A stretch of 64,000 nucleotides of DNA, taken from NCBI GenBank assembly GCA_035502855.1, contig DATJTX010000018.1, forward strand, positions 62,001 to 126,000, read 5' to 3'. The notes under the pieces were generated by a model. The model made no database searches, had not been told where the DNA came from, and worked only from the letters and a program-made list of their open reading frames with translations. Below are positions 5,671 to 23,871 of this stretch, in pieces. The DNA is from Candidatus Baltobacteraceae bacterium (GTDB lineage: Bacteria > Vulcanimicrobiota > Vulcanimicrobiia > Vulcanimicrobiales > Vulcanimicrobiaceae). Position 1 is the stretch's first letter. Each line of letters begins with the position of its first letter. The position numbers and the translations under genes are program-made.

Positions 5671-8600
5671 CTACAGTCTGATCCGGAAATCGACGTAGGC
5701 GTTGAAGGGGAGAGACCCGACGAATGGCGCGTAGGCGTACGAACCGATTGGTTGCGCAAGCTGAGCGCCGGTCGACGTGAGTGCGGACAAGTTTCCAGGG
5801 GCGAACCCGTATTCGGTCTGGACGCTAGGTCCGTACCCGCAGATCGCCTTGGATGGGAGTCCCGGTGTGTTCTCGGTCCACGGGGCCTTCGTGCCGCCGC
5901 TGCAGATATCGAAGATATTTGCGAGCGTCGCCACGACGGTGATGCGCGGGCTGAGATCGTACGTGAGCTGCGTGCTCAGCGTATACCGCGACGGGGTGAT
6001 GAACGCGCCGATGTCGTCGAACTTACCCGTCGAGATGTCGGGGATGTCGAGTTCGGCTCCGCACGTCGACGGATCGGCAGCGCTGCCGTAACCGCCGGCG
6101 GATCCGTAGTAAACAGAGCCGATCGGGAATGCGGTTGGAGTGCCGCAGCTCGAGGGATCGTACCCTGTCTCTGCGAGAGGATAGCCGTACCGGTTGCCGG
6201 CGCTGAACTGCAGTGCGGGCGTGATTGCGAACTTGCCCTTCTTGTAGTTGAGCACCAGCGTCGCCGTGTACGGCGTCACGAACGAGCTGTAGCTGCCTGC
6301 ACCCGGAATGTACGGGAACAGGTCGTACGGCGAGTAGTTGCCGGTTGGATTCAGGAGCGCTTGCGGTGAAGCGTTCCAGTATGGGTTGGCAACGTCGGCG
6401 GCCGTACAGGATGCCGCACTCGCGATCGGCGTTCCCGTTGTACCTGCCGGCGCTCCCACCGGCACAGGTGCGTAGCACGGCGCGACCGCGACGCCGCTCG
6501 GCGTCGTCGTTCCCGTACCGCACAGTTTCGCCGATGCGGTTCCGGTCGCGCAGGCCGACGTCATGTCGTTGTAGGCCTGGATGTTGTTGTTGATCGACGT
6601 TAGCACCGACGCGCCGGTCGAGAGCGCACCGTAGGTCACGTACGCGTTCGTGTACGTGAACGAGAGCAGACCCGAGAGTCCGTCGCGTGCGAAGTCGCCC
6701 TTTTGCAGTTCGAACTCGAAGCCTTCATTCGTCTGCGATCCGATGTTCAGACCGGAAACGAAGTTGGTCTTCACGTTCAAATAGAACTGTTCGATCTGGT
6801 CTTGCGTCTTCCGGTAGAACGGCGTCAGCTTGAAGGACCAGTCGCTTCCCTTGAACTGATGCTCCAGGGAGAGGTCGTAGTTGTTCGAGACTTCCGGTTG
6901 GATCGGATAGGTCGAGCTCGTGCGCCCGTAGGCGAAGAACGTCGGCCCGAGATAGTCCGGAAGGTCTTGCTGCAACACGTTGTACTGCTCGAACGCCGTG
7001 TTCGGCGCCTGGTCGTAGCGACCGTAGCTGGCGCGGATGACGTTGAGCGGGTTGAGCGTGTAGGTCAGACCGACGCGCGGCTGCCACACGGGGAACGAAG
7101 CCGTGTTGACCGTGTCGGAGAGCGTTGCCGGTACCCAACTTGGCCCGAAGCCCGGTTCGCTCGTACAGCCGCCGTTCTGTGCGTTCTCCGTCGGGGTGAC
7201 GGTGGGAAGCGCAACCGCTGAACTACCCGGTTGAGCCGTGTTGTAGCACATCTCGTTGTTCCAGGCGTTGAACCAGAACGGACGAGCGCCGTAATCAGTG
7301 GGATCGGGAACGAACGTGTAGTTGTCGTAGTGCACGCCGACGTTGACGTGCAGTTTGTCGGTCGGATCCCAATTGTCGGTGATCGAGCCCGACGAGAAGC
7401 GCGGCGTCACGGTGTTGTACTCACCGTCGAATCCGTTCTCCGTCGCCAGATACTCGTATCCGGCCGGCGCTGCCGCCGGGAGGCAGTTGTTGGTGACCGT
7501 TGTCGGCGGCGGGCCCGGGAGGACCGTTCCGCACGCCGTCGAGACTCCGGACGGCGAGAAATACGAGGGAGCGTAGCCTTGCGCAACGCTGCATCCCGTT
7601 GGTGCGAGGGCTGCCGTGTAGCAGATGCCCGAGTCCGGATTGGCCGAGCTTACCAGCGTCGCCATCTGGACGTACGGGCTATCGAACACCGTGTTGTCGT
7701 AAGCGCGTTCCGAGGTGGCCGTCGTGTACGACAGTTGCACCTGTGCGAGGTTCTCCGGATTCAACTGATCCGCGAACTCCGCGCTTACGCCGCGCGTATG
7801 CGAGCTGACTTGGTAGTCCGGCGGAATCTCGCCGTTGTAGATGTAGTATCCTAAGGTGCCTGTCGAAGGCCCGTAGTTGAGCCAGTTCGAGTAATCGGTG
7901 TAGCCGTAGACGCGCAAGTACGCATTGGAACCGAAGTTCTTCTGGAACTGCACCTTGATGATGGCATCACCGATGCCCTCGTTATCGCGCGTGTTGTTCG
8001 GAAGCGTCGCGCCGGTTGACTGGAAGGGGAAGTTGTAGGTTGAGAGTTGCGAACCGACGGTGGCGAGATTGACCGGCTGGTTTATCGCGCCGGTGTAGAC
8101 CAATCCCGACGGGTAGGGAATTGCGATCTGCCCGCTCGAGTTGGTGGGGAAGTACCCCGCAAACGCCGGGTTGGTAAAGAGCGCGAAGTCGTCGACCGAG
8201 TTCGCGTAGTACTGGTTGATCTGCGAGGTTTCGTACATCAACTGGATGTCGTCACGCCCGCCGTCGTGTTTGTGCGGGATGCCGAAGTGGAAATTGACGA
8301 CGTTGTCACGATCGTAGATCGACGATAGACCGTCGGTGTAGAACGGAGCCAACGCGAACCCGGGCGTCTCGACGCCGCCGGGCGAGCCGGACATGTAGTT
8401 CCCGTTTACGTAGCACGACGGCAGCGTCGGCGATGCGGTTGGGGGACACGGCAGGAACAGGTCGCCGTACGTGTTGGTGATCGACGCGCCGTCGAACTGA
8501 TCGTACTCGCGATCGTTGTTGTTGTAGCCGCCGAATCCGGCGTAGTACGAGAAGAGCCGGTCCGGTGAGGCTCCTCCGACTTCGACGTTCGCCTTGTGAT

Positions 8601-9405
8601 AGAACGTCGGGAAGCCGATGCCGAGATCGGTTGAAGCATAGCCCGGATAGGTACCGGTCTTGATGACCTGGTTGATGTACCCGGCAAGACCTTGTCCTTG
8701 TGCGTCCGCCGGCGCTGCGCCGGTGTACACTTGGACTTCTTGCTGTCCGAGCGAGGTCGCCGTGTTCGACGGATAGTTGTCGAACGAACGGTTGACCGGA
8801 ACGCCGTCGACTTCGTAACCCACTTGGTCGTAGTCGCCGCCGCGGATGTATACGCTCTGGTACCAGCCCATTTGGCCGACCGGAACGTACGCACCCGGCA
8901 TCGTGGCGATGGCCGAGTAAGCGTTATCGAGGCCGCCGCCGCCGCCCAGGCCCGTGACCTTGGCCGCGGTCGCTGCGTTCACCGAATAGACGTCGGAGGT
9001 CGTGCCCGCCTTGACGAGCGCGCCGGCCGCAGTCGAGGTGACGTGCGCGATTTCTTTCAGCGCCGGATGCATCGTAAACGCGAGCGTCTGGGTTTGGTCT
9101 GCGAAGACCGTGACGCCCGCGAGTGAGATCGGATTGAATTGATCTTTCTCGATCGACACCGTATATGTGTCCGGTGCGAGCGAGAGAAACACGAAGTGGC
9201 CAGAAGCGTCCGTCGTGGTGGAGGCGATTTGCGATGCCGAAGTGACCTTGACGGCCGCTCCAGCAACCGGTGCCCCCGCCTCGTTGGTGACCGTGCCGCT
9301 CAGGCCGCCCGTCGTTCCTGCCAGTGCCCATGTTCCCTGAAACAGAAATGCGACGAGAAGCACCAACGCCACGGCCATCCGACGGATGGTCCGTTTAATT
9401 GTCAT
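5671..9405 (-). CDS. Large TonB-dependent outer-membrane receptor with carboxypeptidase-like N-terminal domain (Oar type)
   Basis: A 1244-residue protein. Residues 1-29 are a signal peptide (basic start, hydrophobic core, AxA-type end). About 33-115 is a carboxypeptidase-regulatory-like beta-sandwich (LSGTVTNEAGAPVAGAAV ... GHFVFLSLAPDTYTV). A plug domain follows at about 135-250, including QSVYIRGGDYDQVGYEVDGVPV. The remainder is a long, aromatic-rich beta-barrel with Cys-containing extracellular loops, ending NAYVDFRIRL. This organisation matches Oar/RagA-like importers. The substrate cannot be read from the sequence; no SusD-like partner or ExbBD/TonB genes lie nearby. The last residue is Leu, not the Phe usual in proteobacterial barrels. 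It appears monocistronic, with a hairpin after it. Confidence 0.88.
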   Translation of the reverse strand: MTIKRTIRRMAVALVLLVAFLFQGTWALAGTTGGLSGTVTNEAGAPVAGAAVKVTSASQIASTTTDASGHFVFLSLAPDTYTVSIEKDQFNPISLAGVTVFADQTQTLAFTMHPALKEIAHVTSTAAGALVKAGTTSDVYSVNAATAAKVTGLGGGGGLDNAYSAIATMPGAYVPVGQMGWYQSVYIRGGDYDQVGYEVDGVPVNRSFDNYPSNTATSLGQQEVQVYTGAAPADAQGQGLAGYINQVIKTGTYPGYASTDLGIGFPTFYHKANVEVGGASPDRLFSYYAGFGGYNNNDREYDQFDGASITNTYGDLFLPCPPTASPTLPSCYVNGNYMSGSPGGVETPGFALAPFYTDGLSSIYDRDNVVNFHFGIPHKHDGGRDDIQLMYETSQINQYYANSVDDFALFTNPAFAGYFPTNSSGQIAIPYPSGLVYTGAINQPVNLATVGSQLSTYNFPFQSTGATLPNNTRDNEGIGDAIIKVQFQKNFGSNAYLRVYGYTDYSNWLNYGPSTGTLGYYIYNGEIPPDYQVSSHTRGVSAEFADQLNPENLAQVQLSYTTATSERAYDNTVFDSPYVQMATLVSSANPDSGICYTAALAPTGCSVAQGYAPSYFSPSGVSTACGTVLPGPPPTTVTNNCLPAAAPAGYEYLATENGFDGEYNTVTPRFSSGSITDNWDPTDKLHVNVGVHYDNYTFVPDPTDYGARPFWFNAWNNEMCYNTAQPGSSAVALPTVTPTENAQNGGCTSEPGFGPSWVPATLSDTVNTASFPVWQPRVGLTYTLNPLNVIRASYGRYDQAPNTAFEQYNVLQQDLPDYLGPTFFAYGRTSSTYPIQPEVSNNYDLSLEHQFKGSDWSFKLTPFYRKTQDQIEQFYLNVKTNFVSGLNIGSQTNEGFEFELQKGDFARDGLSGLLSFTYTNAYVTYGALSTGASVLTSINNNIQAYNDMTSACATGTASAKLCGTGTTTPSGVAVAPCYAPVPVGAPAGTTGTPIASAASCTAADVANPYWNASPQALLNPTGNYSPYDLFPYIPGAGSYSSFVTPYTATLVLNYKKGKFAITPALQFSAGNRYGYPLAETGYDPSSCGTPTAFPIGSVYYGSAGGYGSAADPSTCGAELDIPDISTGKFDDIGAFITPSRYTLSTQLTYDLSPRITVVATLANIFDICSGGTKAPWTENTPGLPSKAICGYGPSVQTEYGFAPGNLSALTSTGAQLAQPIGSYAYAPFVGSLPFNAYVDFRIRL

Positions 9406-9604: not shown

Positions 9605-9639
9605 CCCCTCGACTGCGCTTCGCTACGCTCGGGGTGACA
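9605..9639 (+). repeat. Palindromic repeat forming the 3' end of sucD
   Basis: CCCCTCGACTGCGCTTCG (9605 on) and its continuation CTACGCTCGGGGTGACA to 9639 form a CCCC...GGGG stem-loop of the same general class as the 4.9-5.3 kb repeats (shared GGTGACA end). Read on the sucD strand, it encodes the last residues of SucD and its stop codon. Confidence 0.65.
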
Positions 9640-10513
9640 AAGAAGCAGCCATGCGCTCTGAGAGTAGCGCAGGAATCTGCGAGGGCCGTTCTGCGACCGG
9701 AACGCCGGCGGCCTCGAAGGCCGCGATCTTGCTTTGTGGGGTCCCGAAGCCTCCCGAAATGATCGCCCCGGCGTGCCCGAGCGACTTCCCTGGGGGCGCA
9801 TTGCGTCCGCCGATGAAGGCCACGACCGGCATCCCGGCCAGGTGCTCCTTAATAAAGGCGGCCGCATCTTCTTCGTCCGAGCCGCCGATCTCACCACAGA
9901 TTACGACCGCGCTCGTTTGGGGATCGTTTTTGAATTCGCGCAGGCAGTCCACGAACGTCGTGCCGATGATCGGGTCGCCGCCGATGCCCACACAGGTCGA
10001 TTGACCGAGGCCCGCGCGTGTCAGACCGTCGACCACCTCGTACGTCAGGGTTCCCGAGCGCGAGATCAAGCCGACGCTGCCTTCCTTGAATACGTGGCCC
10101 GGCATGATGCCGACCGACGACTTCCCCGGCGAGATGAGGCCGGGGCAGTTCGGACCGATGATGCGCATACCGGGGGTGGTGCCGACCACCCGCAGCATGT
10201 CGTGCACCGGCACGCCCTCGGTGATACAGACGGAGAAGCGCACGCCCGCTTCATAGGCTTCGAACAACGCGTCGGCTGCGCCGGCCGGCGGCACGAAGAT
10301 GCACTGATGGGTCGCTCCCGTAGCTGCGAGGCATTCCTCGATGGTATTGAAGACCGGCAAGCCGTGCTCGGTTTTCTGCCCGCCTTTGCCGGGCGTCACG
10401 CCGCCGACGACGTTCGTGCCGTAGGCGAGCATGCGGCCGGTATGATACGAGCCTTCCGCGCCGGTGATGCCCTGCACGAATACGCGGCTGTTCTTATCTA
10501 AAAAAATCGACAT
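9623..10513 (-). CDS. sucD: Succinyl-CoA synthetase alpha subunit
   Basis: A 296-residue protein of normal family length. The CoA-binding Rossmann part is N-terminal ([19 protein letters not shown], then [10 protein letters not shown]). [12 protein letters not shown] follows in the middle. [11 protein letters not shown] and the phosphohistidine loop [13 protein letters not shown] (the active-site His) are in the ligase domain. With SucC it makes ATP or GTP from succinyl-CoA in the TCA cycle. It is on the same strand as sucC but separated from it by about 5 kb of inserted genes, an unusual arrangement. The last five or so codons and the stop lie in a palindromic repeat, suggesting that the C-terminus has been altered. 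Confidence 0.96.
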
Positions 10514-10576
10514 GATCGTGTGGTTATTCTCAATCTTCAGCTTTGGGATTCTTAGTTATCTTTTTTAAGGCGCCTC

Positions 10577-11086
10577 ATGGGACCTACATACCAAGGGATG
10601 CTCCTGGAGCGAACAAAAGCCCAGTTCAACAACTTGCCGACGGGTGCACGACAATTGCCGGAACCACGCTTTCAAATCGGGGATGATAGGCGGGATTCCT
10701 CTCCACCTTTCCGACTACTGGATGATCGCACGCTGCGGCTAATTTCCTACTTTCCGAGCCTTCAACGTGTCGCCGACTTTGTTCGCAATAATCCTCACGA
10801 CTCTGGGCTACCTGCCGCTGCAAGTATCGCCGGTATGACCCCGTCCGCGTTCTCGCGCCACTTCTACGGGCGCACCGGCATGAAATTCTGCGATTTCTCG
10901 AAGCGAGTTCGCATAGAATGCGCGCTCGCAGCGTTGGAATACTCAAACCACTCGGTAGCGCAGCTCGCCGAGCTTTCGGGATATTCTCCGTGCGCATTTT
11001 CGCGAAATTTCAAGCAGCTCGTCGGCACGACTCCGTCTGAGTACCGGCGCACTCTGGTAAGCGGATTCCGCACGAGCCCCACGTGA
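10577..11086 (+). CDS. AraC-family transcriptional regulator of the lanthipeptide locus
   Basis: A 169-residue protein whose C-terminal hundred residues form the double helix-turn-helix of AraC/XylS regulators: AASIAGMTPSAFSRHF is the first recognition helix and VAQLAELSGYSPCAFSRNFK the second, followed by the typical GTTPSEYRR. The N-terminal 60 residues are too short for a cupin sensor domain and are not recognised, so the signal is unknown. Its GTGA end overlaps the lanC start, making it the first gene of an operon with lanC and lanB. It is divergent from sucD with only 63 bases between. The precursor gene promoter at about 15.4 kb is a plausible target. Confidence 0.85.
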   Translation: MGPTYQGMLLERTKAQFNNLPTGARQLPEPRFQIGDDRRDSSPPFRLLDDRTLRLISYFPSLQRVADFVRNNPHDSGLPAAASIAGMTPSAFSRHFYGRTGMKFCDFSKRVRIECALAALEYSNHSVAQLAELSGYSPCAFSRNFKQLVGTTPSEYRRTLVSGFRTSPT

Positions 11087-12276
11087 GCGGCCTACTCGCC
11101 GTGTCTTCAACTACGACAGCGCGCGCACTCGCGAAACTCGAGGAACTCGCAGAGTTACTCGTCGAGCACCGTCAAAGCGCCCGACGATCGGTCGGCAGGG
11201 GTTTAGCATCGAATGCGGGCTACGCGATACTCTTTGCCGCTCTGTTCCAGGCAAAAGCCGAGGAAAGATTTGCTGAAGCCGCGGGAAGAGAGCTCCAGGA
11301 TGCCGCCGGTTTCGCAGACGTTCCAAGCCGGGGGCTTTTTTCCGGCTTGGCGGGCCTCAGAGCGGCGGCCGCTTACGCGGAAAAACTCTGGCCTAAATTC
11401 GGCAGGCTGGCGGCCCAATGCGACTCTTACATCGGCGCGGAATTATCTACCATCCCCGAAGTAGTCGAGATGGACACATACGATCTCATATCCGGCTGGG
11501 CCGGGACGAGAGCCGCGCTAGCCCTCGAAGGAGGGTGCAATCCCGACATGTATGTTGAGTCTCTCCTTGCACTTTTCGATTCTGGCGAAGGTCGTTGGCG
11601 GACACGTAATCGCTTCTTTCCGGACCGTGCCTCCCGCAATATTATCGGGGTAGCGCACGGCGTCGTAGGCCCTCTGACGATCATTGCCCTTACGACAAAG
11701 CCCGATCCCGCCACTGTGGCACGCGTCGTAGTTCACGCCAGAAAAGTCGCCGAGCTTGCCATTACCGAAAATAACGCTGTCGGCTGGCCTCAGTGGATAG
11801 GTCATAATGAAATTTACAGGCCGATGACAACCTGGTGTTACGGCAGCGCGGGCATTGCTGCTGCTCTTTTTGCGGTCGGTAAGTGGGCGCGTGACGAATG
11901 GCTCTGCGAGGTCGCGATTAGCAGTCTCGCGTCAATCGACCACAGATCGGCGGCGGCGCTACCCGACGCGGCTCTTTGCCACGGTATCATGGGAACCGTC
12001 GCCTGCTATGCCAGCGTCGCAGCCAATTCCAGCGGCCACGCATTCGAAGTGGCCATCGATGACCTCGTCAACCTTGCGATTGATAGGCTTGCGGCTGAAG
12101 GCAATTCGATCACCGTCAGGAGCAATAATGACTCAAGGCTCGCCTTCGGCGAGCTCGATGGCCTCGCCGGCGTCTGTCTGATGCTCGCAACCCTCCTATA
12201 CGACATAGATTCATCGTGGATGCGCCTGCATGGGCTACTGCCTTTGCCTCATAGCTCGAAAAGTGGCTGCACATGA
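11083..12276 (+). CDS. lanC: Lanthionine synthetase C-like cyclase
   Basis: A 397-residue LanC-type alpha-toroid. The zinc ligands are visible: Cys252 in WCYGSAG and Cys299-His300 in LCHGIMG. GVAHGVVG (His192) and LISGWAGTRAAL are the other family repeats. LanC catalyses addition of cysteine thiols to dehydrated Ser/Thr, making lanthionine rings. The GTG start overlaps the regulator stop and its own stop overlaps lanB (ATGA), so translation is coupled. The tract is visibly richer in A/T-containing codons than the flanking suc genes, hinting at acquisition by transfer. The product could also be classed as LanC-like, but the lanB neighbour favours a true cyclase. Confidence 0.9.
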   Translation: MSGLLAVSSTTTARALAKLEELAELLVEHRQSARRSVGRGLASNAGYAILFAALFQAKAEERFAEAAGRELQDAAGFADVPSRGLFSGLAGLRAAAAYAEKLWPKFGRLAAQCDSYIGAELSTIPEVVEMDTYDLISGWAGTRAALALEGGCNPDMYVESLLALFDSGEGRWRTRNRFFPDRASRNIIGVAHGVVGPLTIIALTTKPDPATVARVVVHARKVAELAITENNAVGWPQWIGHNEIYRPMTTWCYGSAGIAAALFAVGKWARDEWLCEVAISSLASIDHRSAAALPDAALCHGIMGTVACYASVAANSSGHAFEVAIDDLVNLAIDRLAAEGNSITVRSNNDSRLAFGELDGLAGVCLMLATLLYDIDSSWMRLHGLLPLPHSSKSGCT

Positions 12277-15224
12277 GGGAGCACCGATTCGACGCCAGAA
12301 CACGCCCCCTGATCGTGGGTCGCGTTGCGGCGCTGCCGATACAGGTTGCGATCGATCTCCTCGCAGCCCGTAACCCGTTCGAGCAAATGCGGGATCTTAT
12401 CGAATCCGATCCGACGGTTCGACAATTACTGTACGTTGCTTCGCGCTCGCTCTACGACGATCTGCTTCGCTCAGCGCCACCCTCTGATGTTAAGGATACC
12501 GATGAAGCCTGGCTGCGCGGCATGTGCTATCTCCTTCGCAGCTCAGGGCGTTCTACGCCCCTTGGGTTGTGCGCTGGTTTCGGCTCCGTCGAGCCGAGTG
12601 ACGAAACCTCGTTGACGTTGAGCGGCTGGCGAACCAGAACTCTTCCCGACATGCATCAAGCAACTGAGCTAGCGGCAGCCGTCGCCGCGAATCATCGCGA
12701 GCGCATCCGCGTGGTAACCAACGGCGCATGCCTAACTCGGGGCGATCGTTTCTACATCACGAACATCAATCTCTCGGCTCGCCGGATCAGGCCTTTTGGA
12801 ACGGTAACTACACAACGACCCATTTCCATTAAAAGCACCCCTGCGGTAAGGCTCGCACAAGAAACCTGCAGCACGCCAGTACAAATCGGAGAACTCGCCG
12901 AAACCATCATCCGCCATCTCGGCACGAGCCGCCACGAGACTGAGCAGTTTATCGACAGCCTGATCGACGCGGGTGTCCTGATAACAGAACTCTCGGTGTC
13001 GCCGATTGGCGATGCGCCCGGGGAGCTGGTCAGGCGCCTCGAGCGAATCGCACCGCACAACGATCTTTCACGTGCTGCCGCCGCATGCCAATGCTTAGAT
13101 TCGACGGACTTGACGCAGCGCAAAATCCGAGATTATGAGGCAATTGCTTCGCTGCTTGGAGTGCGAAGCAAAAGCGGTACGACGTTTCACGTAGATCTCG
13201 TCGCCCAACTTCAGGGCGGCCTCGGTCATGGCGTTTTGGCTGAAGTCGAAAAATTATGCGGATTCCTCGATGCACTCTCGCTCCCGCAATCATTGAAGAC
13301 CTATCGCGACCGTTTCGTTCGGTTCTATGAGAGTGCCGAGCGGATGGTGCCGCTGCTAGAGCTCGTAGACGACCAGCTAGGAATTGGGGCACCAGACAGG
13401 CTAGACGTTGAGGGAGATGCTGACGAGGCACGGATCGGCGAGATGCGGTCGATCGCAGCCGAAGCGATGCGGGCGCATGCGCGCGAGGTCATTCTTACAG
13501 ATGAGCAGGTCGATAGATTATTTCGTCGGTCGTCGCCGACCCAGAGAAGCTCTCATGACTTGTCGTTCTTCGTCGCTGCGCGCTCGCGAGAGGCAATCAA
13601 CGCCGGCGAGTTCACCATATTGCCAGGCTTCGTTTTTACAGACCGGGCTGGGAAGGTCTTTGGTCGTTTCGCAAGCGCGCTGGACCCAAACTTCCAAGAT
13701 CGCATGGCCGATCTGGTGCCGCAGATCACTGAAGCGGAAGACGATTGCATAACGGCTGAGCTCGCCTTCGCACCACAGGGACGCGTATATAACATAACGT
13801 GTCGCCCCAGGTTATTTGGCAGAGAGCTTAACATCGGAATCTTCGACCAAAGCGAGCCGCAGCCGATTCAGCTGAGTGACGTCTGGGTCGGCCTTGACGG
13901 CGAAAAATTCTTTCTTTGGTCGAAGCTTCATGGGCGGCAGCTCTCACTCCGGGAAAGCCACGCGTTCCTGACGATCGCAAACACGCCGAATCTTTGCCGC
14001 TTCCTGTCGATGATGGCGTCACAGATGGACCGGCGCCCTCGCATGTTCGATTGGAACGGAGAATGGCATCGATACACGCCGCGCGTACGTTATGGGAGGA
14101 TAGTATTAGCAGTCCGGACCTGGCGTTTCGACGCGAGCGAGCTCGGTGCAGATATAGAACGAGCTGTCGCTACTCTTAGTCGTTGGAAGGAAGATTGGGA
14201 TCTACCCGGGCTTGTCAATTTGACGAACGGAGACAACACCTTGCTTATCGACCTCGAGTCCGTGGCGGCTGCGCCGATCCTACTCGACCAACGAAAGAAC
14301 GCACGCGAGTTCGTTTTTCGGGAATTTCTTCCCACGCCTGACGATCTTTGGCTACGGGGACAACACGGAGCACACGTTGTTGAATTCGTTGCCGCGCTGA
14401 TACCGCACGACCAGATCCCACACGGAGTGCGCGTGCGGCGCCCGCTGCTGCTGCAGCAGCGTTCCCGGTATGGACCCGGATCAGAGTGGACATACCTGAA
14501 GCTCTACATGGGCTCACAGGCGATGGAGGGATTCGTATCAGGACCGCTGCTTTCTGCCATCACGGCACTCAAGACGTCTGGGCTGATAGAGCAATGGTTT
14601 TGGCTGCGATACGCGGACCCGGACGGGCACATTCGTGTCCGAGCTTGCGCTGCGCAGGCAGAACCTCTCCTTCGTGATCGCCTGCTCTCCCACGCGGAGG
14701 ATTGGCTCCAGCAAGGCTACGTTCGGAGGGTTTGCGTTGACACGTTCGACCCTGAATATGAGCGCTACGGCGAACCCGAGGAACTAGCGAAGGTCCTCCG
14801 CTTTTTTTGTGAAGACAGCGAACTGTGTGCACGCATCCTGGCATCGATTCGGGAGACGCAAGACGATCGGATAACAACGGCCGCGCTGACATTCAACCGA
14901 CTCGTCATTAATATAGGTGAAGACGCTTTGGTTCTTTCGGCGTTCAAGGACGCCGCTCGCCTCGGTCTAAATACGCGCGATCGCGAGACACTTCGTCGAA
15001 TGAACGGGGAGATCGAGTCCTCGCCTTCGTCTCTGGGGCTAGCTCTTGGCAAATCTGAAAGAAACATCAGACTCTGCGATCTCCTCCATATGCACTGCAA
15101 CCGACTCGGAGTCGACGCCGCCGGTGAGCGGCGCGTTGCGCTCTTGTTGCGTTCCGCCGCCCTCGGACGAAATGCCCAAAGACGCGGAAGGGAGCGCTCG
15201 TCGCCGAACGCTCCCTTCCGCTAA
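12273..15224 (+). CDS. lanB: Class I lanthipeptide dehydratase, full length
   Basis: A 983-residue LanB containing both halves. The N-terminal glutamylation domain includes RSSGRSTPLGLCAGFGS at residues 89-105, the RxTPxGxxAG segment typical of the family. The C-terminal elimination domain (SpaB_C type, from about residue 730) includes EWTYLKLYMG and WFWLRYADPDGHIRVR. Class I dehydratases use glutamyl-tRNA to activate Ser/Thr and then eliminate glutamate to give Dha/Dhb. Having both domains in one chain points to lanthipeptide, not thiopeptide, chemistry. The start overlaps lanC by four bases. The end converges on the precursor gene 13 bases away, with a hairpin inside its last codons. Confidence 0.92.
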   Translation: MREHRFDARTRPLIVGRVAALPIQVAIDLLAARNPFEQMRDLIESDPTVRQLLYVASRSLYDDLLRSAPPSDVKDTDEAWLRGMCYLLRSSGRSTPLGLCAGFGSVEPSDETSLTLSGWRTRTLPDMHQATELAAAVAANHRERIRVVTNGACLTRGDRFYITNINLSARRIRPFGTVTTQRPISIKSTPAVRLAQETCSTPVQIGELAETIIRHLGTSRHETEQFIDSLIDAGVLITELSVSPIGDAPGELVRRLERIAPHNDLSRAAAACQCLDSTDLTQRKIRDYEAIASLLGVRSKSGTTFHVDLVAQLQGGLGHGVLAEVEKLCGFLDALSLPQSLKTYRDRFVRFYESAERMVPLLELVDDQLGIGAPDRLDVEGDADEARIGEMRSIAAEAMRAHAREVILTDEQVDRLFRRSSPTQRSSHDLSFFVAARSREAINAGEFTILPGFVFTDRAGKVFGRFASALDPNFQDRMADLVPQITEAEDDCITAELAFAPQGRVYNITCRPRLFGRELNIGIFDQSEPQPIQLSDVWVGLDGEKFFLWSKLHGRQLSLRESHAFLTIANTPNLCRFLSMMASQMDRRPRMFDWNGEWHRYTPRVRYGRIVLAVRTWRFDASELGADIERAVATLSRWKEDWDLPGLVNLTNGDNTLLIDLESVAAAPILLDQRKNAREFVFREFLPTPDDLWLRGQHGAHVVEFVAALIPHDQIPHGVRVRRPLLLQQRSRYGPGSEWTYLKLYMGSQAMEGFVSGPLLSAITALKTSGLIEQWFWLRYADPDGHIRVRACAAQAEPLLRDRLLSHAEDWLQQGYVRRVCVDTFDPEYERYGEPEELAKVLRFFCEDSELCARILASIRETQDDRITTAALTFNRLVINIGEDALVLSAFKDAARLGLNTRDRETLRRMNGEIESSPSSLGLALGKSERNIRLCDLLHMHCNRLGVDAAGERRVALLLRSAALGRNAQRRGRERSSPNAPFR
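15187..15218 (-). terminator. Hairpin at the lanB / precursor convergence
   Basis: A perfect 10-base stem (GAAGGGAGCG, 15187-15196, with CGCTCCCTTC, 15209-15218) and a 12-base loop lie inside the last codons of lanB. On the reverse strand it begins 20 bases after the precursor stop and is followed by CGCGTCTTT, so it may terminate or stabilise the short precursor transcript. The T run is weak. Confidence 0.5.
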
Positions 15225-15237
15225 ATTCTACCCGAAC

Positions 15238-15381
15238 CTACGGCTCCAAGCAGCTGTCCGAGCAATTAACGAATTTCGTACACGAGAATGAAATCTCGCA
15301 ATAGATCGCCTGAGTATCCGACATCGCCGGTTCGTGCTCGCCGCCCTCGTCGCCAATTCTGAGATCCAACTCCTGAAGCAT
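15238..15381 (-). CDS. lanA: Lanthipeptide precursor peptide
   Basis: A 47-residue peptide encoded opposite to lanBC. Residues 1-20 (MLQELDLRIGDEGGEHEP and on) are acidic and lack Cys, Ser and Thr; LDLRI resembles the FNLD-type recognition motif of class I leaders. Residues 21-47 hold four cysteines (28, 34, 40, 44) and seven Ser/Thr (21, 23, 31, 33, 35, 41, 43), most lying before a cysteine, as needed for thioether rings. GGAGAGG six bases before the ATG at 15381 fixes the start; the longer upstream frame runs through promoter sequence. The leader cleavage site is not certain. The position next to lanB, the composition and the ribosome site together make this a strong candidate, although the sequence is not one I recognise. 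Confidence 0.82.
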   Translation of the reverse strand: MLQELDLRIGDEGGEHEPAMSDTQAIYCEISFSCTKFVNCSDSCLEP

Positions 15382-15403
15382 CGGCCCTCTCCATTCTAGA
15401 CGC

Positions 15404-15431
15404 ACTGTATGGGGAACATGTCCCTCGTAAA
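15404..15431 (-). promoter_or_regulatory. Possible precursor-gene promoter with central dyad
   Basis: On the reverse strand TTTACG (15431-15426) and TACAGT (15409-15404) are separated by 16 bases. The spacer contains GGGACATGTTCCC, a dyad with GGGA/TCCC arms that could be an operator. The leader would be only about 15 bases before the GGAGAGG site. The hexamers are weak, so this is tentative. Confidence 0.35.
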
Positions 15432-15495
15432 GAGTAACACGCCGCCCACGGAGCACGGATGGCAATTTTTGATCCAGCTCTATCGTTTTTTGCTG

Positions 15496-16662
15496 TTACC
15501 CTCGTGCAAGTTCAACCGCGCGCGCCGCGCCTTCGTCCATGGTTTCGACCGGCGTCATGCCGGCCGCTTTGAGAATGCGCCGCCCCTCTTCTTCATTGGT
15601 GCCGGTGAGGCGGATCACCAGCGGAATCTTGCGCGCCTTCGTCTCCTCGAGCGCTTCGACGATGCCTTTGGCAACTTCGTCCCCGCGCGTGATGCCGCCG
15701 AAGATGTTGATGAAGAACACCCTGGCTCCGGTGTGATTGACGACCAACTCGTAGCAGTTGCGCACACGCTCGGCATTTGCGCCGCCGCCGACGTCGAGGA
15801 AGTTCGCGATCTCTCCGCCCGCATTCTTGACCGCATCCATCGTCGCCATCGCCAGTCCTGCGCCGTTCGCCATCGTGCCGACCGTGCCGGGAAACCGGCG
15901 GAAGTTGCGAATGCCCAGACCCGCCTGCGCGGCGAGCGTCTCGTCGGGGTCGAGGGGCAACGTCCTTTGCCATTCCTTGAACTCGGGATGGCGGAAGAGC
16001 GCGTCGTCGTCGAGTTCGACCTTCGCATCCGCCGCGATCACGCGGCCGTCCTTGGTCAAGATGAGCGGATTGATTTCCACCAGTTTCGCCCCGTAGGTGA
16101 AGAACAGGTCGTACATGCCGCCGAGGATCGCCGGAAATTGTTTGCGATAGCCGGCGTCGAGCCCGGCCTTGAATGCGAGCTCGCGTCCGATGAACGGCGA
16201 ATAGCCGATCGCCGTGTCGACGTAGAACGTATGAAACGACTCAGGATGCTTTTCGTGGACTTCTTCAACGTCCATACCGCCGAAGCGCGTAACGATGATC
16301 GCCGGTTTCTTGTTCGTCCGATCGACACTGATCGCGCAGTACGACTCGAGCGCAACGTCGAGCGTCTCCTCGACCAACACCGAGTTCACTTCTTCGCCGT
16401 TGGGGTTTTGGCGATTCGGCGGCATCGGCGTCGCCATGATCTCTTGCGCGGCTTTGCGGCCCTCGTCAGGCGTCGATGCAAATTTGATCTTGCCGGCCTT
16501 ACCGCGGCCGCCCATCAGCACCTGCGCCTTGATTACCCACTTGCCGGGATTGCGCTCGATGAATGCCGCGACTTCGTCGGGTGTGTCGCAGTGCTGCGAA
16601 CGCGGCACGGGAATACCCGAGCGGCGAAAGAGCTCTTTCCCCATATACTCCATGAGATTCAT
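15496..16662 (-). CDS. sucC: Succinyl-CoA synthetase beta subunit
   Basis: A 388-residue ATP-grasp protein of normal length. N-terminal landmarks are MNLMEYMGKELFRRSGIPVP and KAQVLMGGRGKAGKIKF. The metal/nucleotide region is VEINPLILTKDGRVIAADAKVELDDDA. The C-terminal CoA-ligase part contains FLDVGGGANAERV and FINIFGGITRGDEVAKGI. It forms the nucleotide- and succinate-binding half of succinyl-CoA synthetase with SucD. In most genomes sucC directly precedes sucD on the same strand; here the order is kept but the lanthipeptide locus lies between them, so sucD must have its own promoter or depend on long read-through. Confidence 0.96.
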   Translation of the reverse strand: MNLMEYMGKELFRRSGIPVPRSQHCDTPDEVAAFIERNPGKWVIKAQVLMGGRGKAGKIKFASTPDEGRKAAQEIMATPMPPNRQNPNGEEVNSVLVEETLDVALESYCAISVDRTNKKPAIIVTRFGGMDVEEVHEKHPESFHTFYVDTAIGYSPFIGRELAFKAGLDAGYRKQFPAILGGMYDLFFTYGAKLVEINPLILTKDGRVIAADAKVELDDDALFRHPEFKEWQRTLPLDPDETLAAQAGLGIRNFRRFPGTVGTMANGAGLAMATMDAVKNAGGEIANFLDVGGGANAERVRNCYELVVNHTGARVFFINIFGGITRGDEVAKGIVEALEETKARKIPLVIRLTGTNEEEGRRILKAAGMTPVETMDEGAARAVELARG

Positions 16663-21882: not shown

Positions 21883-23871
21883 TCAGCGATGCGCGAGCAT
21901 CGAGAGGCGGTCGAGGTCGGCGCGCACCATCATCTCGACCAGCTCTTCGAAGGTGATCTGCGGCTCCCAGCCCAAGACGCGCTTCGCCTTGGAAGGATCG
22001 CCGATGAGCAGATCGACCTCCGCCGGCCGCACGAAGCGCGGATCGATCTTGACGTACGGCTGGTAGTCGCCCAATCCGGCGCACTCGAACGCGATGCGCA
22101 CGAAGTCGCGAACGCTATGCGTGCGACCGGTCGCGATCACGAAATCGTCGGGATTGGTCTGCTGCAGCATCAGCCACATCGCCCGAACGTAATCGCCGGC
22201 GTAGCCCCAATCGCGCTGCGCGTCGAGATTCCCCAGACGCAATTCTTTTTCGAGTCCGAGTTTGATGCGCGCGACGCCGTCGGTGATTTTGCGCGTAACG
22301 AATTCTTTTCCCCTACGTGGGGAGTTATGAATGATCAGCTCCCCCACACCCGCGTGAAACCGCCCGGTCTCAGTGGTTAGGTCGTAGAGCCAGCCATCGA
22401 AGTGCGGATGTTCGACGACGCGCTTCACCTCGCCCAGGTCTTTTCGCAGGTGAGCGCCCTTATTCCCGATCGGATTCGGAGAACGAAGATTCGCCGAATA
22501 GAAGGGGCCGGGGCGATCGGGTGGTCCAACCTCGACGTTAAGCACGACCTCCTGGTCGAGCGCCTTCCGCGCCATCCACCATAAGCCCATGGCCAGTACC
22601 GGCGAATTCGTTTTGAAGTTCTTGTATCGGTACGTCCCATTTCCGGCCTTGAGGCCATCCGTCGCATTGTAGCCCTCGAGAAATGCGCGCCAAACCGCCT
22701 CGCCGCCATTGAGAATAACGCGCGGCACGCGCTCGTACCCGTCGCGGGTGTAACATTCCTCGCGTAGCCACTCGATGAAGCGAGGCGCCCCGTTCAACGC
22801 CAGTGCACCAACGATTGACCCCGCCCGGAAGCCCGACGCAGTTGCGTTATACGACGCCCGGCCAAGCGTCTGACGCTCCCAAACTTCCGCAAAAAATGCG
22901 CGACCGTCTTCTTGCTTCGACGCGGACCCGTCGCCAACGAAAGCGCCAAGCATCCACGCGAACTCGAGTCCGGGATTCGTGAAGGACGGCGCCTCGGGCA
23001 ACGCCGCACGCTGCATACGGTCGCCGCACTTCACGTGCTTCGATGGGCGCTCTCCGTCGGCCGTGTACATTACATGATCCGCCGTCAGCGTGACGGTGCC
23101 GCAGCGCGCCTCAATGCGGCGAACACCCTTGTTAGCGACAACCGGCCGGTGCCTGTACGCGGTCCCGCCGAGAACGCGAACGAATCGCTCGCCGTCCCAG
23201 ACTTGCAGATCGTCGAAATCGAAACGCTGGACGTTTGACCCTTTCTCGCGTACGTGCATTACGTCGCCGATTGGCACCACATCGACGATATTGCCGCGCT
23301 TTACGATAATCGGTGTCGTGGCTGGGACCGACTCGTGATTGAACAGGATTCCGCTCAGCGCAAACATGTCGTATGACTCGCGGTAGTTGACCGTGATCCA
23401 GTGTCCGTAGACTTTTGCAACTCCGTACGGGCTGCGCGGATAGAACGGCGTCGTCTCGCTCTGCGGCTTTTCGACGACCTTGCCGAACATCTCCGAGCTC
23501 GACGCCTGATAGAAGCGGATCGACGGATCGGTCGCGCGGATCGCCTCGAGCACGCGGGTTACGCCGAGCGCGGTGAACTCGCCGGTGAGCACCGGCTGCT
23601 GCCAAGAGGTCGGAACGAACGACTGCGCCGCGAGATTGTAGACTTCGTTTGGACGCACGCTGTTGATGATCGAGGTGATCGAGGTTTGGTCGAGCAGATC
23701 GCCCGAGACGAACTCGACGTCGTCGACGATGTGCTGGATGCGTTCGTGGACGTCGGTGGACGTGCGGCGCGTCATCCCCACGACACGGTAGCCCTGGCCC
23801 AGCAACAATTCGGCAAGATAGGAGCCGTCTTGCCCGGTGATCCCCGTGATCAGCGCGGTTTTCTTAGCCAA
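21883..23871 (-). CDS. gmd: GDP-mannose 4,6-dehydratase interrupted by an intein
   Basis: A 662-residue precursor. Residues 1-180 and 517-662 together make a normal Gmd of 326 residues. The NADP loop is LITGITGQDGSYLAELLL, the catalytic set lies in SSSEMFG and SPYGVAK, and the family motif NHESPRRGKEFVTRKI is split after NHE by residues 181-516. The rejoined enzyme converts GDP-mannose to GDP-4-keto-6-deoxymannose, the substrate for Rmd downstream. A TTG start is used, preceded by GAGGGG. Activity depends on splicing, since the insert falls in the active-site/dimer loop. Confidence 0.95.
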   Translation of the reverse strand: MAKKTALITGITGQDGSYLAELLLGQGYRVVGMTRRTSTDVHERIQHIVDDVEFVSGDLLDQTSITSIINSVRPNEVYNLAAQSFVPTSWQQPVLTGEFTALGVTRVLEAIRATDPSIRFYQASSSEMFGKVVEKPQSETTPFYPRSPYGVAKVYGHWITVNYRESYDMFALSGILFNHESVPATTPIIVKRGNIVDVVPIGDVMHVREKGSNVQRFDFDDLQVWDGERFVRVLGGTAYRHRPVVANKGVRRIEARCGTVTLTADHVMYTADGERPSKHVKCGDRMQRAALPEAPSFTNPGLEFAWMLGAFVGDGSASKQEDGRAFFAEVWERQTLGRASYNATASGFRAGSIVGALALNGAPRFIEWLREECYTRDGYERVPRVILNGGEAVWRAFLEGYNATDGLKAGNGTYRYKNFKTNSPVLAMGLWWMARKALDQEVVLNVEVGPPDRPGPFYSANLRSPNPIGNKGAHLRKDLGEVKRVVEHPHFDGWLYDLTTETGRFHAGVGELIIHNSPRRGKEFVTRKITDGVARIKLGLEKELRLGNLDAQRDWGYAGDYVRAMWLMLQQTNPDDFVIATGRTHSVRDFVRIAFECAGLGDYQPYVKIDPRFVRPAEVDLLIGDPSKAKRVLGWEPQITFEELVEMMVRADLDRLSMLAHR
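22324..23331 (-). other. Intein with homing-endonuclease-like domain (within gmd)
   Basis: 336 residues, Gmd positions 181-516. It begins with Ser1 (SVPATTPIIV), has a block B-like TLTADHVMYT with the conserved Thr-x-x-His near its residue 85, and ends with WLYDLTTETGRFHAGVGELIIHN followed by Ser+1. These are the splicing blocks A, B, F and G with the terminal His-Asn. In the middle LGAFVGDGS and, later, FLEGYNATDG match the two dodecapeptides of LAGLIDADG endonucleases. Ser1 and Ser+1 imply ester-based splicing. Removal restores NHE-SPRRG exactly. Confidence 0.92.

Follow-up and report, generated by a model that had tools for sequence, protein, structure and literature searches.

A probable class I lanthipeptide precursor with a short leader, encoded opposite lanB in a cassette between sucC and sucD of an Eremiobacterota genome

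The window, which is the whole 64,000-nucleotide stretch of DNA analysed here, contains a small lan cassette located between sucD and sucC. The genes and features at this locus are as follows.

9623-10513, minus strand: sucD, flanking the cassette
10514-15495: the whole lan cassette, ~5 kb, between sucD and sucC
10577-11086, plus strand: AraC-type DNA-binding regulator (PF12833, E 3e-18)
11083-12276, plus strand: lanC, 397-aa cyclase (PF05147, E 6e-29)
12273-15224, plus strand: lanB, class I lanthipeptide dehydratase of 983 aa, comprising glutamylation and elimination domains (PF04738, E 2e-115; PF14028, E 7e-38)
15184-15221: 17-bp inverted repeat in the 3' end of lanB, a terminator-like hairpin without a U tract
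15238-15381, minus strand: lanA, putative 47-aa class I lanthipeptide precursor (whole-genome profile match, conserved leader, divergent core)
15241-15321, minus strand: predicted core region of lanA, with 4 Cys (28, 34, 40, 44) and 7 Ser/Thr; ring assignment putative
15322-15381, minus strand: predicted leader region of lanA (about residues 1-20), carrying LQELDLRI as its recognition motif right at the N terminus
15386-15392, minus strand: Shine-Dalgarno-like GGAGAGG, separated from the downstream lanA ATG by 4 bases
15496-16662, minus strand: sucC, flanking the cassette

The lanA frame runs from 15381 to 15238 on the minus strand, is intact over 47 codons from ATG to stop, and encodes MLQELDLRIGDEGGEHEPAMSDTQAIYCEISFSCTKFVNCSDSCLEP. 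An earlier note had placed a 47-residue frame opposite lanB at exactly this position, and most of its description holds. Residues 1-20 contain no Ser, Thr, or Cys, and the counts of four Cys and seven Ser/Thr (S21, T23, S31, S33, T35, S41, and S43) in the C-terminal half are right. The stops of lanA and lanB, at 15238 and 15224, lie tail to tail with 13 bases between them, and the lanB and lanC genes beside the frame are both confirmed by Pfam. The GGAGAGG upstream of the ATG is also present, but its spacing is four bases instead of the six given in the note; the sequence ahead of the ATG reads CTAGAATGGAGAGGGCCG, in which GCCG separates GGAGAGG from the start codon. The GC3 of the frame is 0.71, which is coding-like. 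No promoter was detected for lanA. Read-through from sucC is conceivable, as lanA is on the same strand and 114 bases downstream of it.

The LQELDLRI motif is a variant of the FxLD box, the strict F-x-L-D being absent from the lanA leader. In nisin, the box is located about 15-18 residues ahead of the cleavage site. If this distance is the same in lanA, the leader would end near residue 20, after EPAM; the position is uncertain, and the leader end is placed at about residue 20-25. Double-glycine cleavage after G13-G14 was considered and ruled out, as the aligned relatives have no GG at that place. It is also disfavoured by the lack of a peptidase domain in the four ABC transporters of relatives that were scanned.

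LanB is full length, and its N- and C-terminal domains are both recognized by Pfam. The comparison of a five-sequence LanB profile with solved structures returned MibB (5ehk, 8e-118), MadB (9g04, 3e-116), and NisB (4wd9, 4e-58). An AlphaFold model of LanB built from nine sequences has a mean pLDDT of 66, which suits fold matches and not leader docking. Its top fold matches were MadB, MibB, and NisB, and TbtB and GodF followed with weaker E-values. R89, R93, and T95-P96 in the N-terminal domain and H786, R790, and E830-R831 in the C-terminal domain are invariant in nine LanBs. In five LanCs, D134, H192, C252, C299, and H300 are invariant, as are the WCYG and CHG motifs. The roles of the zinc ligands and of the active-site H and D were assigned on the assumption that they correspond to those in the known structure of NisC. 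Judged from these residues, LanC retains the zinc and catalytic residues, with a Cys-Cys-His zinc site.

The lanC gene overlaps lanB by 4 bases, and the regulator gene overlaps the start of lanC by 4 bases. Because neighbouring genes overlap in this way, the regulator, lanC, and lanB probably constitute one operon, of which the AraC-type regulator is probably the first gene. The genome-wide search detected a single LanB and a single LanC, which makes them the evident partners of lanA. By sequence, the cassette has the features of a class I lanthipeptide cluster: a LanB with both domains, a separate LanC, and a short precursor with leader and core nearby.

The 17-bp hairpin, in the last lanB codons, sits between the convergent lanB and lanA genes. 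The 66-nt stretch has a folding energy of -41.6 kcal/mol (z -7). The hairpin was absent from the list of classical terminators obtained by a terminator scan. Each of the 18 relatives that gave a sucC match has sucD directly next to it (within about 100 bases for the main copy); in the window the two genes are split by the lan cassette. The GC content of the cassette is 0.577, against 0.614 and 0.643 for sucC and sucD, and its GC3 is 0.62 against 0.79. These lower values fit a horizontal gain. No direct or inverted repeats of at least 9 bases, as marks of a mobile element, were found at the cassette ends. The sucC and sucD junctions were read from one assembly, and there may be a misassembly at these points. 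Near the cassette, positions 5671-9405 on the minus strand encode a large TonB-dependent receptor whose N-terminal domain is carboxypeptidase-regulatory-like. Elsewhere in the window (21883-23871, minus strand), the Gmd match of a 662-aa GDP-mannose 4,6-dehydratase frame falls into two parts. They are separated by an insert, flanked by ...ILFNHE and SPRRGKEF and ending in ELIIHN, that looks like an intein.

Relatives of LanB are present in 12 other genomes of the class, among 117 searched. The search of genome contigs with the five-row LanB profile detected 21 loci, including those from Candidatus Eremiobacterota relatives and actinobacterial outgroups; the search with the single LanB as a query detected nothing. 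Beside LanB, the relatives have frames of 48-66 residues that open with MFE(D/E)(L/I/V)DL(R/K)I and end in Cys/Thr-rich tails. The scan around these LanB genes, which required an LD motif at the N-terminal end of a short frame and Cys in its C-terminal half, yielded 12 peptides from seven genomes, all in lan loci. Examples are MFEDVDLRIADEETAQY..., MFEELDLKIGASDKEKN..., MFEDIDLKIGDNTAQAG..., and MVFDDIDLSIGHVGNAS... In eight genomes of the class, including that of the window, LanB and frames with the same short leader share one locus. Five of the 12 other genomes with LanB yielded no precursor, and in three of those five the LanB match reaches the contig end. A wider profile from all 13 peptides detected 27 copies in 10 of the 117 genomes, of which the input rows match by construction and about 14 are new. 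The earlier note had named a genomic pattern that would speak against its proposal, the loss of the frame where lanBC are conserved; this was not the pattern found in the related genomes.

The lanA motif LQELDLRI aligns with MFEDIDLKI and FDDLDLRE in the leaders of relatives; the LD part of this likeness is selected for, because the filter included the LD motif, and the flanking residues and the position in the peptide are less selected. When the lanA leader was compared with those of five relatives, none of 10,000 shuffles scored as high for three of them, and 3 and 47 shuffles did so for the other two. The lanA core, on the other hand, was mostly no better than shuffled sequences in matching the cores of relatives. 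The score against the core at locus L023 (CTKFVNC in one and CSKFIQC in the other) was reached by 163 of 10,000 shuffles, a count uncorrected for the five comparisons made, and this core likeness is suggestive only. Conserved leaders with divergent cores are a signature of RiPP precursors. A precursor tail to tail with lanB is also seen at loci L021 and L023, where it overlaps the last lanB codons. Thus, the position of lanA opposite lanB is a recurring layout and not an oddity.

The proposal that the product of lanA is a class I lanthipeptide precursor (LanA), the substrate of the LanB/LanC pair, is very probably correct. It has to be weighed against a chance open frame, in which case the LanBC pair would be an orphan or have its real substrate at another place in the genome. 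The frame is short, lies on the strand opposite lanBC, and has no detectable promoter, and spurious frames are abundant in GC-rich DNA. However, a filter for frames that follow a Shine-Dalgarno-like site and have an N-terminal LD motif and at least three Cys in their C-terminal half passed 13 frames in 267 kb (the window and relatives), all 13 of them within lan loci. The lanA frame is the only one in the 64-kb window to pass, where about 0.1 would be expected by chance: five frames passed in 2.56 Mb of sequence simulated with a third-order Markov model of window composition. In addition, the precursors of five relatives, but not the window peptide, were combined into a profile that was then run against the 3.3-Mb genome in six frames. 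With E up to 10, its single match in the whole genome was the lanA frame (E 0.017, on its own a modest value). With the leader far above shuffles, the good ribosome-binding site, and the coding-like GC3, a chance frame is highly improbable. No curated precursor model in NCBIfam, Pfam, or PHROGs matched the peptide, which says little as the peptide is short. A tblastn search with the peptide against plasmids found nothing, and no close homologue of the exact peptide was found. The suggestion of the earlier note that this frame is the LanB/LanC substrate is supported by the same-leader frames beside LanB in relatives and by the profile that matched lanA only.

The peptide could also be the substrate of a LanB chemistry that makes no lanthionine, for example, dehydration only or the use of a pearlin-type carrier peptide. 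LanB-like enzymes serve several RiPP classes (PEARLs, thiopeptides, and goadsporin), and TbtB and GodF are among the fold matches. Those matches are weaker, LanB has both domains over its full length, the metal and catalytic residues of the overlapping LanC are intact, and Ser/Thr lie upstream of the four Cys of the core, all of which make this reading quite improbable. Another view is that the cassette is a gained remnant that no longer works; it concerns present-day activity and is compatible with the peptide being LanA. Exporter, leader protease, and immunity genes were not seen among the cassette ORFs, whereas an ABC transporter is found in the lan loci of L020, L022, L023, and L027. The split sucCD and a composition unlike that of the neighbours point the same way. 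Against it, the regulator, lanC, lanB, and lanA are all intact frames, and other ABC exporters are encoded in the genome, the best candidate being on contig C15 with 31% identity. Dedicated exporter, protease, and immunity genes are accessory in class I clusters, often but not always present. A non-functional cassette is unlikely.

In a sister genus represented by three genomes (G107, G108, and G110; loci L029, L102-L108, L110, and L111), each genome has four to eight precursors. Their leaders are near-identical (RFDDLDLREEP), and their cores are very different. Several of them are scattered on contigs without a detected LanB. G108 is 95% complete and has one LanB and six LanC-like matches, with remote precursors on C18 and C23; the missing or partial LanB in G107 and G110 means little because both genomes are incomplete. 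A gene for a protein of ~1130 aa is located near remote precursors in both G110 (L106:573-3971) and G107 (L111:337-3753), with the N termini VRLVDGRVVYAASDLNDYLA and VRLVDGRVVFAASDLNDYLA, respectively. As these neighbours share their N terminus, the remote precursor sites may be conserved. It is possible that this genus has a prochlorosin-like, in-trans class I system. In the prochlorosin strategy, one enzyme set acts in trans on many substrates with different cores. The peptide from lanA belongs to no precursor family catalogued in NCBIfam or Pfam as far as sequence matches go, and eight precursors of relatives were also unmatched there. We tentatively suggest that lanA is part of an uncatalogued Eremiobacterota family whose minimal FxxLDL leader guides a class I LanB to highly varied cores, and that the sister genus might follow the prochlorosin strategy with class I enzymes.

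Among known systems, NAI-107 (microbisporicin) has the closest solved LanB by sequence, MibB, although the two enzymes are distant, with an identity of 22% in the fold match. The leaders of NAI-107 and planosporicin contain LDLxIG, similar to the lanA box, and actinobacterial class I leaders more generally have a resembling LDLD or FxLD box. The lanA leader is shorter than that of NAI-107, with its box at residues 4-7 and without an N-terminal extension, and to our knowledge the two cores are not alike. The actinobacterial precursors found beside LanB (L039, L041, L043, L044, L046, L047, and L048) share an LDLDxR/FDLDxRE leader box and a short Cys-bearing core with lanA. Their box is further from the N terminus, and most of them have fewer core Cys. 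MadB of Clostridium maddingley is the top fold match of LanB and the second by sequence, and the best phmmer match of LanC was 8byk, which we take to be MadC. This likeness covers the enzymes, and the phylum is distant. Nisin has the same enzyme pair and presumably the same logic. In contrast to nisin, no NisT, NisP, or immunity genes were seen in the window cassette, the lanA leader has LDLRI in place of FNLD, and the Cys spacing differs.

By analogy with these systems, the N-terminal leader of lanA with LDLRI would be bound by the leader-binding domain of LanB. With glutamyl-tRNA, this enzyme would then glutamylate core Ser and Thr residues and eliminate glutamate, leading to Dha and Dhb, and LanC would add the four Cys to these residues, leading to up to four (methyl)lanthionine rings. 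The earlier note took the ring pattern as probably new, which may be so, but ring topology is unreadable from sequence. Candidate rings are, from N to C, S21 or T23 with C28, S31 with C34, T35 with C40, and S41 with C44; S33 and S43, which each adjoin a Cys, would remain Dha. The leader would be cut off near residue 20-25 by a protease encoded elsewhere, and the product would be exported by an exporter also encoded elsewhere. This product is likely to be antibiotic-like, with a presumably antimicrobial role.

Class I is a large and mined class: one survey reported 2698 class I precursors, and about 24% of class I precursors were unannotated (PMC7268733). An unannotated LanA beside LanBC is thus expected. 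In the papers found on RiPPs in Eremiobacterota, other RiPP types are discussed (PMC9259500) or clusters are only counted (PMC11834409). The lanA system would be a further example of a well-known class I kind, and its novelty lies in the lineage and in the short-leader precursor family. It provides a LanBC pair of an uncultured soil phylum with a probable substrate. The precursors of this group form a leader family missing from Pfam and NCBIfam, and their diverse Cys-rich cores would be useful as a test set. For leader-guided peptide engineering, a leader as short as this would serve as a compact handle. The sister genus with scattered precursors is a more interesting lead than lanA itself.
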